Shown piece by piece: positions 49,849 through 55,874 of a DNA stretch of 64,000 bases. The stretch spans positions 62,001 through 126,000 of the forward strand of contig DUTM01000006.1 of assembly GCA_012842085.1 (NCBI GenBank). Direction: 5' to 3'. A program made the position numbers and the translations under genes. Numbering within the stretch: position 1 is the stretch's first letter; every line of letters begins with the position of its first letter. The notes below the pieces were generated by a model. The model was not told the origin of the DNA and searched no databases. It saw only the letters and a program-made list of their open reading frames with translations. This DNA comes from Mycobacteriales bacterium (GTDB taxonomy: Bacteria > Actinomycetota > Actinomycetes > Mycobacteriales > Mycobacteriaceae).

Positions 49849-51477
49849 TTAGATGCGTCGCAGTTCACTTACCAGGGTCGGGAACTCGATTGCAGCGAAT
49901 GGAAGCGGCGGCACAATAAGTTTCAGTTCCGTGTCGGTCACTTTGATGTAGAACGGTATAACCGGATCCTTATCTATACTCTCCTGCAGGAATTTTTCCA
50001 ACGCAGGATCGGTGTCTTTCTGGGACAACATTTCGTCCGAGATGACGAGCGCCGCAGAGTAGTATCGGGGTTCGTCATCAATACCGAATGCGCGGGAGAA
50101 AAGCCGTTGGGACAGGGGTGATGCGAGCCGCCCATAGGCGGTATGCATAACCGTGTTGTAAACCCTCCCATTGCCCCACACATTGTGGGGGCCAGAGGAC
50201 GCTGCATCTTGGGCGTTATCAAAGAACGTCAACTGCACTGGATGTGTGGTGTCTGCATAGGCAAAGTGGGGAACCATGATGCGGACATTCTCACTCCCGC
50301 GCAGCACCCCCTCATAGCTATAGGGGGAGGGGGCAGCCAAGGTGTCCATACTGCGATCCGTGGGATCATTCTCAATCGGGGTGCCCACCAGCGGCATACC
50401 GGTCGGCACGAATTGCCACTTGGTGTCGTTGAGCATTTTGTGCCAGTAACCAGTGGTGCCGTCCCGTTTGCCCTCCACCCGCAGCTCGCGGTTCTCGGTA
50501 CCGGGAGCAGTTGAATGGATGGAGATGCGGTCGGTGATGAAACCAGGGATTTTGGGGTGCTGCTGCCAATCCGGGGGCGGCAATTTGATGGGTGCAGTGC
50601 GGAAATTGACACGATGCTCCCGCCAGGAGGTACTGACTTTCCGGTCCGGTTTCGACACCCACGTGTAGCGGAACTGGGCGGGATCACCACCTGCGATGTC
50701 GTAGTCGTAGAGACGGGTGTACATGTCCCCATATTTGTTAATAATGAAGCTGGTGGAGGCGCCGGCCGATAACGCTGCTGCCTGAAAACGACAATTGTAG
50801 GGCGTGCCGATTTCGTACGAGTAGTCCCGCGTCAACCAGGGATCACAGCTCACAATGGTTTGTCCCTTGTTCACCAGAAACAACACCTGGGTGCATCCCG
50901 CGAAAGACACCGGATGTACTCGTCCATCCGCGTCCGTGTAGGTTTGGTCCTGCTCCGAGTTGATGACGGAAAGACACCACTGGCGCGGGGTAGTGTTCGC
51001 AATTTGGAAACCATCGAAAATACGTCCCGGGCCACCCCACGCTCTTATCCAGCGGAAATCCTCTGGCTCGCCCAAAGTTTTCTTCATGGTGTAGAGCCAG
51101 CCATCCTCATCCACCCCAATGAGGCGGTCCGCGTCCAACGAAATGCCGATGAGGGTGTCGTGGAAACCATCCGGCATGGGGGCTTGCCGCCAATCCTCCT
51201 CGGTTTCCCGGTGGCGCATGTAGACAATGCCGTCCAGTAGCGTCATCTCCCATTTGCGGTTGAAACTGGAGGTATTGTCGCGCAGATCCACCCGCTGCGG
51301 AAGCTCGGCAAGAATTTTCGGGTTGGTGACCACCGGCAGTTCGGCAAACGGAACCGCATAGCTCACATCCGTGTCGTCCTTAATGCGGACAGGCACCGCC
51401 TTATTGGGCCCATCGCTCGCCGGACGGGATGGTGCTACGGGAGGTAAATATACTTCTCTATCAGTGTCTTTAGCCAT
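49849..51477 (-). CDS. Large protein of unknown family, non-secreted paralogue
   Basis: A 542-residue protein that I do not recognise. It is a full-length paralogue of the gene at 51470-53095; shared blocks include RDNTSSFNR, APMP, AGCTQ, DPWLTRDYSYE-GTP, INKYGDMYTR, GGDPAQF, KIPGFIT, TAPG-ENRELRVEG, TGYWHKML, KWQFVPTGMPL and MDTLA. Repeated strand patterns (DGIVYMRHR, DGWLYTMKK, KYGDMYTRLYDYD) suggest a beta-propeller. Unlike its partner it has no signal peptide: the N-terminus MAKDTDREVYLPP is hydrophilic. It overlaps the upstream paralogue by eight bases. It may be cytoplasmic or leave by another route. Confidence 0.75.
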   Translation of the reverse strand: MAKDTDREVYLPPVAPSRPASDGPNKAVPVRIKDDTDVSYAVPFAELPVVTNPKILAELPQRVDLRDNTSSFNRKWEMTLLDGIVYMRHRETEEDWRQAPMPDGFHDTLIGISLDADRLIGVDEDGWLYTMKKTLGEPEDFRWIRAWGGPGRIFDGFQIANTTPRQWCLSVINSEQDQTYTDADGRVHPVSFAGCTQVLFLVNKGQTIVSCDPWLTRDYSYEIGTPYNCRFQAAALSAGASTSFIINKYGDMYTRLYDYDIAGGDPAQFRYTWVSKPDRKVSTSWREHRVNFRTAPIKLPPPDWQQHPKIPGFITDRISIHSTAPGTENRELRVEGKRDGTTGYWHKMLNDTKWQFVPTGMPLVGTPIENDPTDRSMDTLAAPSPYSYEGVLRGSENVRIMVPHFAYADTTHPVQLTFFDNAQDAASSGPHNVWGNGRVYNTVMHTAYGRLASPLSQRLFSRAFGIDDEPRYYSAALVISDEMLSQKDTDPALEKFLQESIDKDPVIPFYIKVTDTELKLIVPPLPFAAIEFPTLVSELRRI

Positions 51478-53095
51478 AGCGTTCCAGTGTGGTGATGTCG
51501 GGGCTTAATGCCGTGCCGGACAGAATAGGGTTGATGAGTTGCATCTCGGAAGACGTTACCGTCATGTACATTTCATGAATACGGTTGCCCCGCAGATACG
51601 CGCTAATGAAAGACTGCAGCGTCTTATTGTGGTGGCGCTGCTGCCAGATCCTTTGCGGTATTTCGAGGGCCACAGCATAGCGGCGCGGATCAGCAGTGAC
51701 CCCATACTTGTGAGCCACTAGCTCCTGGCTGAAAAGGGTGCCGAGGCGTCCATAAACCGTGTGCAGCACCACCGGATAGGTTTTCCCACCCACTTGCAGC
51801 TGCACCGGTTGATGGGGCGACTGGTAGGCAAAGTTGCGGACAGTCAGCTGGGCTGTTGTTCCGAAAGAGTCAATGGTGCCGCGGTAGTGCAGTGGGGAAG
51901 CGGGCGCCAACGTGTCCATGGTGCGGTCCTGCGGAGTATTCTGCAGTATTTTGCCGCGCAGGGGCTCGCCGGTGGGAACAAAAGTCCACTTTTGGGCGTG
52001 CAACATTTTCTTCCAATAGCCGGTCACACCACGGTGTCGGCCCTCCACTTTCAGAAGCCGGTTTTTCATTCCAGGTGCAGTGGATTCCACCGAAAGGCGG
52101 TTGGTGATCTCACCGGGGATCTTGGGCTGCTTCCACCAGTCTTTCACCGGAATGCGCATCTTTTTCGCCATCGGGTTGAGCCGCTGGTCGAACCAGTTTT
52201 GGGCAGTGTATCTGCGTTTTTCTGGGGTGAAAGTGTAGTTGAATTGCGCCGGGTCTCCTCCCGAATAGTCGTAGTCCCAGGCGCGAGTGTAGAGGTCACC
52301 ATATTTGTTGGTGATGAGGGCGACGGAAGCGGATGCGGAAACAGATTCAGCAATGAAGCGGGACTGCACAGGAGTGCCCCACTCGTAGCTGTAATCGTTG
52401 GGCAGCCACGGGTCGTGGGAGAAAATGTGGCGACCGTCTTTACTCATTTCCACAATCTGGGTGCACCCCGCCAAAGAAATGTGGTGCACGTTTCCGTCGT
52501 TATCGGTGTATGTTTTGTCGTCGTCCACGTTGATGATGGACAGTGCCCACTGGCCAGGGGTGATGTTGGCCATCTGGAATCCGTCTTCGGCTCGCATTAA
52601 GCTGCCCCAGGCGGTCTTCCAATACCATTCCTCGGTGTCTTTCTGCACTCCAAAAATGGTGTACACCCAGCCGTTTTTGTCGATTGCCACAATCTCTTCG
52701 GCGTCCATCGAGACACCCACAATCCGGCCCTGGGTGCAACCAGGCATGGGGGCTAGCCGCCACCGTTCATTGCTGTTGCGGTGGCGAGTATAAATATTGC
52801 CGTTTTTAACAGTCACCTCGAAATAGCGGTTGTAGGAGGAGGTGTTGTCCCGGAGATGGATTTTGCGAGGTAAGTTTTTGGCTCTCGCGAGGGGGAGTTG
52901 CTTGAATGTTACGGAGTTGCTGGCCGTTGGGTCCTCATCGCGGATGGGTACACATACTAATGGCTCGGTACCAGCCTTCGGTCTGGGGGCGGGACCAGGC
53001 CAGTCTGCGCCGGGAGCGGCAACAGCGGAGGGAGCGATACTGAGTGTTAGTGCAGCGGAGAGAAGTACTGCGCTTAAAGAAAGTGCTCGACTCAT
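51470..53095 (-). CDS. Large secreted protein of unknown family, paralogue of 49849
   Basis: A 541-residue exported protein with a clear signal peptide (MSRALSLSAVLLSAALTLSI start, cleavage near AVA-AP at 26-27). The mature part is a single globular unit, probably beta-propeller-rich, homologous end to end to the downstream gene. AAGGGA precedes the ATG. It is the first gene of a two-gene unit, divergent from the Pab fusion by 175 bases. No catalytic motif, sortase signal or membrane anchor is visible. An extracellular binding or structural role is possible, but no function can be given. Confidence 0.78.
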   Translation of the reverse strand: MSRALSLSAVLLSAALTLSIAPSAVAAPGADWPGPAPRPKAGTEPLVCVPIRDEDPTASNSVTFKQLPLARAKNLPRKIHLRDNTSSYNRYFEVTVKNGNIYTRHRNSNERWRLAPMPGCTQGRIVGVSMDAEEIVAIDKNGWVYTIFGVQKDTEEWYWKTAWGSLMRAEDGFQMANITPGQWALSIINVDDDKTYTDNDGNVHHISLAGCTQIVEMSKDGRHIFSHDPWLPNDYSYEWGTPVQSRFIAESVSASASVALITNKYGDLYTRAWDYDYSGGDPAQFNYTFTPEKRRYTAQNWFDQRLNPMAKKMRIPVKDWWKQPKIPGEITNRLSVESTAPGMKNRLLKVEGRHRGVTGYWKKMLHAQKWTFVPTGEPLRGKILQNTPQDRTMDTLAPASPLHYRGTIDSFGTTAQLTVRNFAYQSPHQPVQLQVGGKTYPVVLHTVYGRLGTLFSQELVAHKYGVTADPRRYAVALEIPQRIWQQRHHNKTLQSFISAYLRGNRIHEMYMTVTSSEMQLINPILSGTALSPDITTLERYG

Positions 53096-53270: not shown

Positions 53271-55874
53271 GTGCGAGTTCTACTCATCGACTACTACGAT
53301 TCATACACTTCCTCCTTGGTGCATCTGCTCCTGGAAGCGGGAGCCTCGCATGTCACTACCGTCGGGCATGACAGCCCCCAATTAGAAGCGCTTCTCTCCA
53401 CTATTTCCGCAATCCAGGAGCAGTATCAGCTGATTGTCTTGGCCCCTGGTCCCGGTAATCCCCACGATCTTCTACAGGCTTCTCATACCGCACGTGTGCT
53501 AGCAGCCCCGCTGCCTATGTGGGGTATTGGCCTGGGGCACCAGCTGATTGCTTTGCATGCTGGCGCCTCCTCCACGCAGGATCGTCGGCCGTGCCACGGC
53601 CAGGTCTCGCACGTGCATCACACCGAGGAGGGAATGTGGGCGGGGATCCCGAACGGCACTCCCGTCGCTCGGTTCCATTCCTGGTCGGTGCAAACACCGC
53701 TACCGGCTGCGCTGCGCGTCACCGCAGAAACCACTGAAAACGCTGAAAACACTGTGATGGCGTTTGCTGGACACCACCACAACACACCCCGCTGGGGCAC
53801 CCAGTTTCAGCCCGAATCCCTTGACACCCCGGCCGGTCTGGATATTGCCCGCAATATTTTGGGCCTGGCTCAACGCTGGAATTCCTCTGCAGTAACCGGA
53901 CTGGACACCACCCAAGTTGTGGAAGTGCTGCGCCGCTTCCGTACCGATAACGAGCATCTCCGCTGCCTCGACGACAGCCTCTTAGAGCGCACTGGGACCG
54001 TCAGCCGCGACTCCCACTGGGGCAGCATAATTACGCTCTGCAGTAATGACCGCATAGTGGGTGACGGCGAAGCGTTGGCACAGGTGGAAGCCCGGCTGGG
54101 GGAACGAGTTGCTGCTGCGCCCGGTGCTTTCTCCGGCTGGATCGGTGCCATTAACTACGAGGGGGACTATGTTGACTTTGCCCACACCACCATTGCCGTC
54201 ACCGGCTCCTCGCATGGTTGGACGGTAGCTGGTGACGATCCCACACGTGTGCAGGCCGTGAAGGAGGCTTTAGCTGCAGCCAGCGACGCTGCCGCCGACG
54301 ACGCTCCGGCTGGCAACACTGCTGCGGATAGTGCGGAAGTGTCTTTCCAGACAGAGCTATTCGGCCCCGACAAAGGCACCTACCGCAAACTTTTCGACAC
54401 TGTGCAAAAGCTGCTGCACGCCGGCGACAGCTATGAGGTATGTTTAACCGATCGTTTCCGGGTGCCCCGCTACGCCACCCACACCCCGTGGGAGACATTT
54501 CTACGACTGCGGCATATTTGCCCCACCCACTTTGGTGCCTACCTGGAGCTTGCGGACAGAACAGTGGTGTCGGCCTCGCCGGAACTATTCCTCAAAACAA
54601 CCCCAAGTGGAAGTGTTGTTACCCGCCCCATGAAAGGCACCGCCCGCCGTCACCCCCATAATCCGCAACAGGATGCGGCAGCAGCGGCGGCGTTAGCAAA
54701 CGATCCGAAAACCCGCGCCGAAAATCTGATGGCGATCGACCTGGCGCGCAGTGATCTGGCACAAGTGTGTAAACCGGGGACGGTGCACGTGTCGCGCGAC
54801 CGGGTGGTGGAATCCTTCGAAACAGTGCACCAACTGGTCTCCGAGGTGACGGGAGTGCTGGCGCCAGACAAAACCCCCTTCGATGCGGTGCGTACCTGTT
54901 GGCCACCCGCCTCCATGACGGGTGCCCCAAAGGCCCAAACGGTGGAACATTTGCGGCACATGGAGCAGCAGCCGCGCGACATCTACTCCGGGGTGGTGGG
55001 TTTCATTACTGACGCCGGGGAAGCCGAATTTTCGGTAGTTATCCGCACCGCCATATTCGATAAAGAGGAAGTGACTATTGGGGCTGGGGGAGCAATAACC
55101 ATCGACTCGACTCTGGATGAAGAGTTCACGGAGCTGCACCACAAAGCCAGCTATGTGGTGAAGGCTTGTGTGGATTCCGACAAGTTGGTTGCACAAGCCC
55201 CCGTAGTGGACTCGTTTTATTGGTGCAACGGCCACCAAATCGACCAGCAACACCAGAGCAAACATCCCCACCAGAGCGGGCTAGCGGACGATACGCTTTC
55301 CCGGAAACTGCACCAGGAGCGTTTCGTGGACGCGGTGAAACAGCTTTATGGACCAACCCAACACCAGGCTGCCCAACAATTCTATGACCAGTGCCTGCAG
55401 CAGCTACCACAGGAAGGGGAATATTTTCCCCGCATCGCCTGGACTGCACGTGGGGGAGAGGCCGACCTCGAGCGGCCCTGCCCCAAGCGACTGACGGACA
55501 TCACCGCTACTCTCGCGGATCTTCCCGACGGCCGCTACCTGCCAACCATTAAAGGCCCCGATATGCCCGCTTTAGCGGTGTTGCGCCAGGATGCCAGCGA
55601 CCGCGGAGCCGACGAAATTGTGTTCGGCGACAGGTGGGGCAATGTTGTGGAAGGTACCCACTCAGCGATTCTGTGGTGGGAGGGAGACACGTTGTGTGGC
55701 CCGCCCAAACATGCGGTACTGCCCAGTACGATGCGGGAACTCTATGAGCACGTCATGCGGCAACAGGGGCATCCGGTGGTAGAAAAATGGCTGCCTTTGC
55801 GGGAGCTACCGAACTATCGGGTAGTGTCCGTGAACGCGCTCCATGGGGTGCGCACAATAACCAATTGGGTGTAG
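53271..55874 (+). CDS. PabA-PabB-PabC fusion with inactivated glutaminase domain
   Basis: An 867-residue three-domain folate enzyme making p-aminobenzoate. Residues 1-195 are a GATase1 (PabA/TrpG) domain, but the nucleophile Cys of GxCxGHQ is Gly87 (GIGLGHQ) and the His of FHPES is Gln180 (FQPES), so glutamine hydrolysis should be lost. Residues about 215-645 are PabB with Lys455 in the PMKGTARR motif (the ADC-synthase Lys), DLARSDLAQV, HQLVSEVTG and SMTGAPKAQTVEHL. Residues about 650-867 resemble PabC (PLP lyase), with Lys761 in TIKGPD and DEIVFGDRWGNVVEGTHSAI. It would need free ammonia or a partner glutaminase. GTG start, leaderless type. Confidence 0.9.
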   Translation: MRVLLIDYYDSYTSSLVHLLLEAGASHVTTVGHDSPQLEALLSTISAIQEQYQLIVLAPGPGNPHDLLQASHTARVLAAPLPMWGIGLGHQLIALHAGASSTQDRRPCHGQVSHVHHTEEGMWAGIPNGTPVARFHSWSVQTPLPAALRVTAETTENAENTVMAFAGHHHNTPRWGTQFQPESLDTPAGLDIARNILGLAQRWNSSAVTGLDTTQVVEVLRRFRTDNEHLRCLDDSLLERTGTVSRDSHWGSIITLCSNDRIVGDGEALAQVEARLGERVAAAPGAFSGWIGAINYEGDYVDFAHTTIAVTGSSHGWTVAGDDPTRVQAVKEALAAASDAAADDAPAGNTAADSAEVSFQTELFGPDKGTYRKLFDTVQKLLHAGDSYEVCLTDRFRVPRYATHTPWETFLRLRHICPTHFGAYLELADRTVVSASPELFLKTTPSGSVVTRPMKGTARRHPHNPQQDAAAAAALANDPKTRAENLMAIDLARSDLAQVCKPGTVHVSRDRVVESFETVHQLVSEVTGVLAPDKTPFDAVRTCWPPASMTGAPKAQTVEHLRHMEQQPRDIYSGVVGFITDAGEAEFSVVIRTAIFDKEEVTIGAGGAITIDSTLDEEFTELHHKASYVVKACVDSDKLVAQAPVVDSFYWCNGHQIDQQHQSKHPHQSGLADDTLSRKLHQERFVDAVKQLYGPTQHQAAQQFYDQCLQQLPQEGEYFPRIAWTARGGEADLERPCPKRLTDITATLADLPDGRYLPTIKGPDMPALAVLRQDASDRGADEIVFGDRWGNVVEGTHSAILWWEGDTLCGPPKHAVLPSTMRELYEHVMRQQGHPVVEKWLPLRELPNYRVVSVNALHGVRTITNWV

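Follow-up and report, generated by a model that had tools for sequence, protein, structure and literature searches.

The window analysed here, a 64,000-nucleotide stretch of contig DUTM01000006.1 from a Mycobacteriales bacterium (GCA_012842085.1), carries at positions 53271–55874 a single open reading frame that combines class-I glutaminase (GATase), chorismate-binding and class-IV aminotransferase domains, which identifies it as a PabA-PabB-PabC triple fusion. Pfam matches were obtained for GATase at residues 4–196 (E 9e-30, 104 bits against a curated cut-off of 22.8), Chorismate_bind at residues 369–625 (E 5e-76) and Aminotran_4 at residues 679–866 (E 4e-19), the latter two also above their curated cut-offs. 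The gene, its parts and the residues under discussion are as follows.

53271–55874, plus strand: PabA-PabB-PabC-type fusion gene, 867 aa, GTG start, stop codon at 55872–55874, reading frame open throughout
53271–53885, plus strand: PabA-like class-I glutaminase domain, residues 1–205, predicted inactive (Pfam GATase, AlphaFold)
53529–53531, plus strand: Gly87 (codon GGC) replacing the catalytic Cys (E. coli PabA C79), which is Cys in all aligned homologues
53673–53675, plus strand: Phe135 replacing Tyr (E. coli PabA Y127), from the alignment with relatives
53682–53684, plus strand: Trp138 replacing Leu, two residues past His136 (E. coli H128), from the alignment with relatives
53808–53810, plus strand: Gln180 (codon CAG) replacing the catalytic His (E. 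coli PabA H168), which is His in all aligned homologues
53814–53816, plus strand: Glu182 (codon GAA), the retained triad acid (E. coli PabA E170)
53886–54365, plus strand: linker together with a PabB N-terminal region that is shortened and divergent, residues 206–365, 36% identical to the congener
54366–55172, plus strand: PabB chorismate-binding core, residues 366–634, with Lys455 in the motif TRPMKGT
54738–54749, plus strand: Asp490 and Arg493, retained PabB equivalents of E. coli D308 and R311 (alignment)
55188–55871, plus strand: PabC-like ADC lyase domain, residues 640–867 (Aminotran_4), with Lys761 in IKGPD

The catalytic motifs of the synthase and lyase parts are intact as judged from the sequence, in agreement with the first-pass annotation of this DNA, which had considered both domains functional-looking. 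The nucleophile lysine of PabB, Lys455, is present in a PIKGT-like motif (codon 54633–54635, AAA), and Lys761 (codon 55551–55553, AAA), which is also found in the congener, is the candidate PLP-lysine by motif position. No separate PabC was found in the genome, where the only other Aminotran_4 protein is a single 390-aa frame, so that the PabC domain of the fusion is likely the ADC lyase. Among PabC-like ORFs located near PabAB in Streptomyces, four (L043:12859-13857, L049:8511-9551, L052:12967-13935, L054:12797-13786) have Thr or Glu at the Lys761 position, and L046 keeps Lys. In the alignment, the N-terminal part of PabB has gaps relative to other PabAB proteins in both members of the genus; its shortening and divergence (window 53886–54365) are common to both species, as are changes in PabB core motifs, e.g., N494S and G547A.

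The glutaminase domain is altered at the active site itself. It is reported that C79 of E. coli PabA forms the glutamyl thioester and that H168 is a member of the triad (PMC7617670). The first-pass annotation had read Gly87 and Gln180 at these positions, with the Glu and the fold motifs retained, and both codons were found exactly where it had placed them, so the Cys-His-Glu triad expected of an active class-I glutamine amidotransferase is reduced to Gly87, Gln180 and Glu182. Two further active-site changes had been missed, Tyr135Phe and Leu138Trp; the E. coli counterpart of the former, Y127, holds the hydrolytic (catalytic) water and contacts PabB D308 (PMC7617670), and the latter lies in a column where relatives have Leu, or Met in two sequences of a second genus in the family. 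His136 (E. coli H128) and Ser183 are retained together with the motifs PGPGNP, GLGHQ, RFHS and PES, indicating that the class-I GATase fold and the oxyanion and glutamine-binding motifs are present. In the AlphaFold model, blocks within residues 1–200 reach a pLDDT of 70–93, and strand 83–86, residue 87 and helix 88–96 have the usual nucleophile-elbow layout. This model was built on 17 sequences; its quality is good over the glutaminase but poor in the rest of the protein (mean pLDDT 63.8 overall), and it was therefore kept out of tunnel arguments and fold searches. On the PabB side, D308 and R311 hold the PabA-PabB interface in E. coli (PMC7617670), and their equivalents are kept. The loss of catalytic residues with retention of the fold motifs and of this interface suggests that it is the chemistry that is affected, and the codons and the homologue alignment together support the prediction that the glutaminase domain is catalytically dead inside an otherwise intact fusion.

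The first-pass annotation had proposed that homologues be compared for retention of the Cys and His, and this comparison revealed that the relatives keep both residues, so that the loss is lineage-specific. Cys, His and Glu occur in all of the 112 other aligned glutaminase-domain ORFs, including the syntenic orthologue of the congener, and in 28 of 28 loci from the second genus of the family, about 140 homologues in total. The genus sample comprises two genomes, the source draft and one congener assembled as a single 1.86-Mb contig. The congener (G001, L007:1501-4098) carries a syntenic triple fusion of the same architecture and 50% identity that reads PLWGVCLGHQ and GVQFHPES; it thus has the catalytic Cys and His as well as the Tyr and Leu, all four of which the window protein lacks. 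The two loci share ThiD, a small thiol protein and two paralogues of about 540 aa upstream, and two inositol-monophosphatase genes downstream. The adjacent ~540-aa paralogues (window 49849–53095, minus strand) match no Pfam family; the congener has them in the same order, with identities of 72% and 67%. Across the 34 GATase columns whose conservation among the 91 relatives compared reaches 98.5% or more, C87G, Y135F, L138W, V177T and H180Q are departures of the window protein alone within the congener pair and form an active-site cluster, while A154S is the sole departure of the congener alone. The same three-part fusion, with Cys and His kept, was found in three of the 28 loci of the other genus, and in most of the remaining loci a pabC-like ORF accompanies PabAB within the fetched stretch. 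With the congener and all 140 homologues intact, the loss of glutaminase chemistry is well supported by these alignments as specific to the lineage of this species and is not a property of the fusion. A genus-wide or fusion-linked loss was rejected, as the congener and three other triple fusions keep Cys and His.

The fusion gene evolves fast in both species, its domains being 36–59% identical between the congeners compared with 66–80% for the neighbouring and trp genes. Non-consensus sites found in this species only, against those in the congener only, number 30 versus 14 in the GATase domain (binomial p 0.02), 22 versus 20 in PabB and 20 versus 17 in PabC. The branch ratio, from trees built with FastTree, is 2.2 for GATase (bootstrap 95% 1.2–5.6) and 1.2 for PabB (0.6–3.5). 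The contrast from domain to domain does not reach significance (Fisher p 0.19 and 0.13; the bootstrap overlap is 0.16); it is suggestive that the glutaminase has evolved at about double the rate of that of the congener and PabB and PabC have not, a pattern that would fit relaxed constraint on the glutaminase alone. A pseudogene was considered and rejected, given the absence of stop codons and a third-position G+C like that of most neighbours.

The genome retains pABA-consuming enzymes, with folE-folP-folB-folK located beside ftsH, and therefore needs pABA. Class-I GATase matches in the genome comprise TrpG, a 527-aa ORF of GuaA size, the window protein and two others. The first-pass annotation had also proposed a search for a separate pabA or trpG, which yielded an intact TrpG (GVCLGHQ, GVQFHPES) adjoining trpE and trpD, whereas no second PabA besides TrpG was found by the GATase family search in this 85% complete assembly; the possibility that another locus encodes a substitute PabA was rejected on the same basis. 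The NCBIfam models matched by TrpG are those of dual-use aminodeoxychorismate/anthranilate component II, with scores below the equivalog cut-offs. Close to its N terminus, the TrpG of the congener (L039:1267-1974) contains an insertion, some 45 residues long, that is absent from the TrpG of this genome. The Amt ammonium transporter was not found in either genome of the genus, and both genomes encode a member of the glutamate dehydrogenase family.

Three-part fusions of this kind are already known. DIP1790 of Corynebacterium diphtheriae, described in 2007 as a PabAa-PabAb-PabAc triple fusion, acts both as ADC synthase and as ADC lyase and produces pABA from chorismate and glutamine with no added PabC (PMC1971073). 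Compared by its published description, it shares the same three parts and, by sequence, the same pathway role with the window protein, but it uses glutamine, whereas the window protein lacks the catalytic Cys and His and is predicted to be incapable of glutamine-dependent pABA synthesis. The earlier view that an inactive domain retained in a three-part fusion is unusual is supported as to the dead domain, but the fusion itself is not new, since DIP1790, the congener and the three loci of the second genus also have it; the dead glutaminase is the only difference here. E. coli PabA and PabB (PDB 8rp0-8rp7; PMC7617670) likewise constitute the glutaminase and synthase of an ADC synthase, with the Asp308/Arg311 pair that has its counterparts here, but they are separate subunits, and their Cys79-His168-Glu170 triad is functional. 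Human carbamoyl phosphate synthetase 1 (CPS1) retains an inactive class-I glutaminase-like domain, as the window protein appears to, and takes ammonia from its surroundings (PMC4655335); it differs in synthase and pathway and in the replacement of its Cys by Ser, and the ammonia use shown for CPS1 is inferred here. No report of a naturally dead PabA was found in the open-licence papers searched.

The first-pass annotation reasoned that the nitrogen must come from ammonia or from another glutaminase, which is supported by the altered triad and the presence of an intact TrpG. We give roughly even chances to the reading that the fusion still functions as ADC synthase and ADC lyase, that its glutaminase part persists as a remnant lacking catalysis, and that free ammonia serves to aminate chorismate. 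The PabB part would aminate chorismate with ammonia reaching its active site without glutaminase catalysis, drawn from solution in the manner of human CPS1 unless TrpG is the supplier, and the PabC domain would then release pABA; fusion to PabB, whose interface it covers, is the probable reason why the remnant has been retained. In favour of this reading are the loss of Cys and His, the Phe in place of the water-positioning Tyr, the intact remainder of the protein, the retained interface Asp and Arg, and the pABA consumers kept in the genome. The E. coli delta-pabA strain offers a precedent for PabB running on ammonia, as CPS1 does for the inactive domain. Its main weakness, by analogy with E. 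coli, is the high ammonium that would be needed: the delta-pabA strain is described, in an account citing Rayl 1996, as growing without pABA only at 100 mM ammonium or more (PMC11194204), which suggests that unaided PabB is poor at ordinary ammonia levels. The lack of a detected Amt transporter, the non-significant rate contrast between domains and the dependence on one draft genome also count against it.

Alternatively, the TrpG of the trp operon may feed ammonia to PabB in trans, displacing or bypassing the dead domain, a possible but doubtful arrangement. It is known that a glutaminase subunit is shared between the pABA and trp pathways in some bacteria (PMC1971073), TrpG here is intact beside trpE and trpD and matches the dual-use models below their cut-offs, and PabB retains its interface residues Asp490 and Arg493. 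On the glutaminase side, the change at position 135 affects the Tyr that in E. coli touches D308. However, the fused domain presumably fills the docking site at high local concentration, and the congener also has an intact TrpG together with a live fused domain, so that sharing is not demanded by the architecture. Decay of the pathway, in which the cell would scavenge pABA while the enzyme deteriorates beginning with the glutaminase, appears unlikely. In its favour, about 1–10 nM pABA is enough for E. coli pABA auxotrophs (PMC11194204), and the small genome of about 2 Mb would fit a host-associated life; the fast divergence of the fusion gene relative to the neighbouring and trp genes also points this way, but it covers all domains and the functional-looking copy of the congener as well. 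Moreover, the ORF is intact with its PabB and PabC catalytic motifs, these two domains depart from the consensus no more than those of the congener, and the third-position G+C resembles that of most neighbours. A sequencing or assembly artefact, or a minor strain variant that is not the normal state of the species, is highly improbable. The sequence comes from one strain and a draft of 2.24 Mb in 151 contigs (85% complete, 3.9% contamination), but at least two independent errors would be needed exactly at the Cys and His codons, plus the neighbouring active-site changes, and the contig is 215 kb long with a locus syntenic with that of the congener; two sequencing errors on just the two catalytic codons are very unlikely.

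Beyond the ammonia-fed synthase with a remnant glutaminase, we tentatively put forward that the protein may be a natural, obligately ammonia-dependent ADC synthase, which would make it the bacterial equivalent of CPS1 in the folate pathway, and one whose dead domain has been remodelled, through Tyr135Phe and Leu138Trp, as an ammonia entry or gate or as a docking platform for TrpG. If confirmed, the loss would represent a natural case of a folate-pathway enzyme changing its nitrogen source from glutamine to ammonia, and the close neighbour with the ancestral state would provide a matched pair for testing the consequences of glutaminase loss. It would also be a warning that annotation by domain score, here 104 bits, labels a dead glutaminase as active.

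Other non-Cys GATases in the family were sought by a DNA-pattern scan of 401 genomes, in which only this protein and one CarA matched; the Cys version of the pattern recovers 92 of 114 known GATase ORFs. A second DNA-pattern scan of the 401 genomes is weak, its control being unmatched too, though the T-codon version works. The matched CarA-type small subunit (L161:2676-3854, minus strand, G108 contig 92) lies beside a CarB ORF and reads GIGLGHQ and GVQYLPAP. This carbamoyl-phosphate synthase small subunit has lost the glutaminase Cys, the His and probably the Glu, and represents a second, independent dead class-I glutaminase within the same family.
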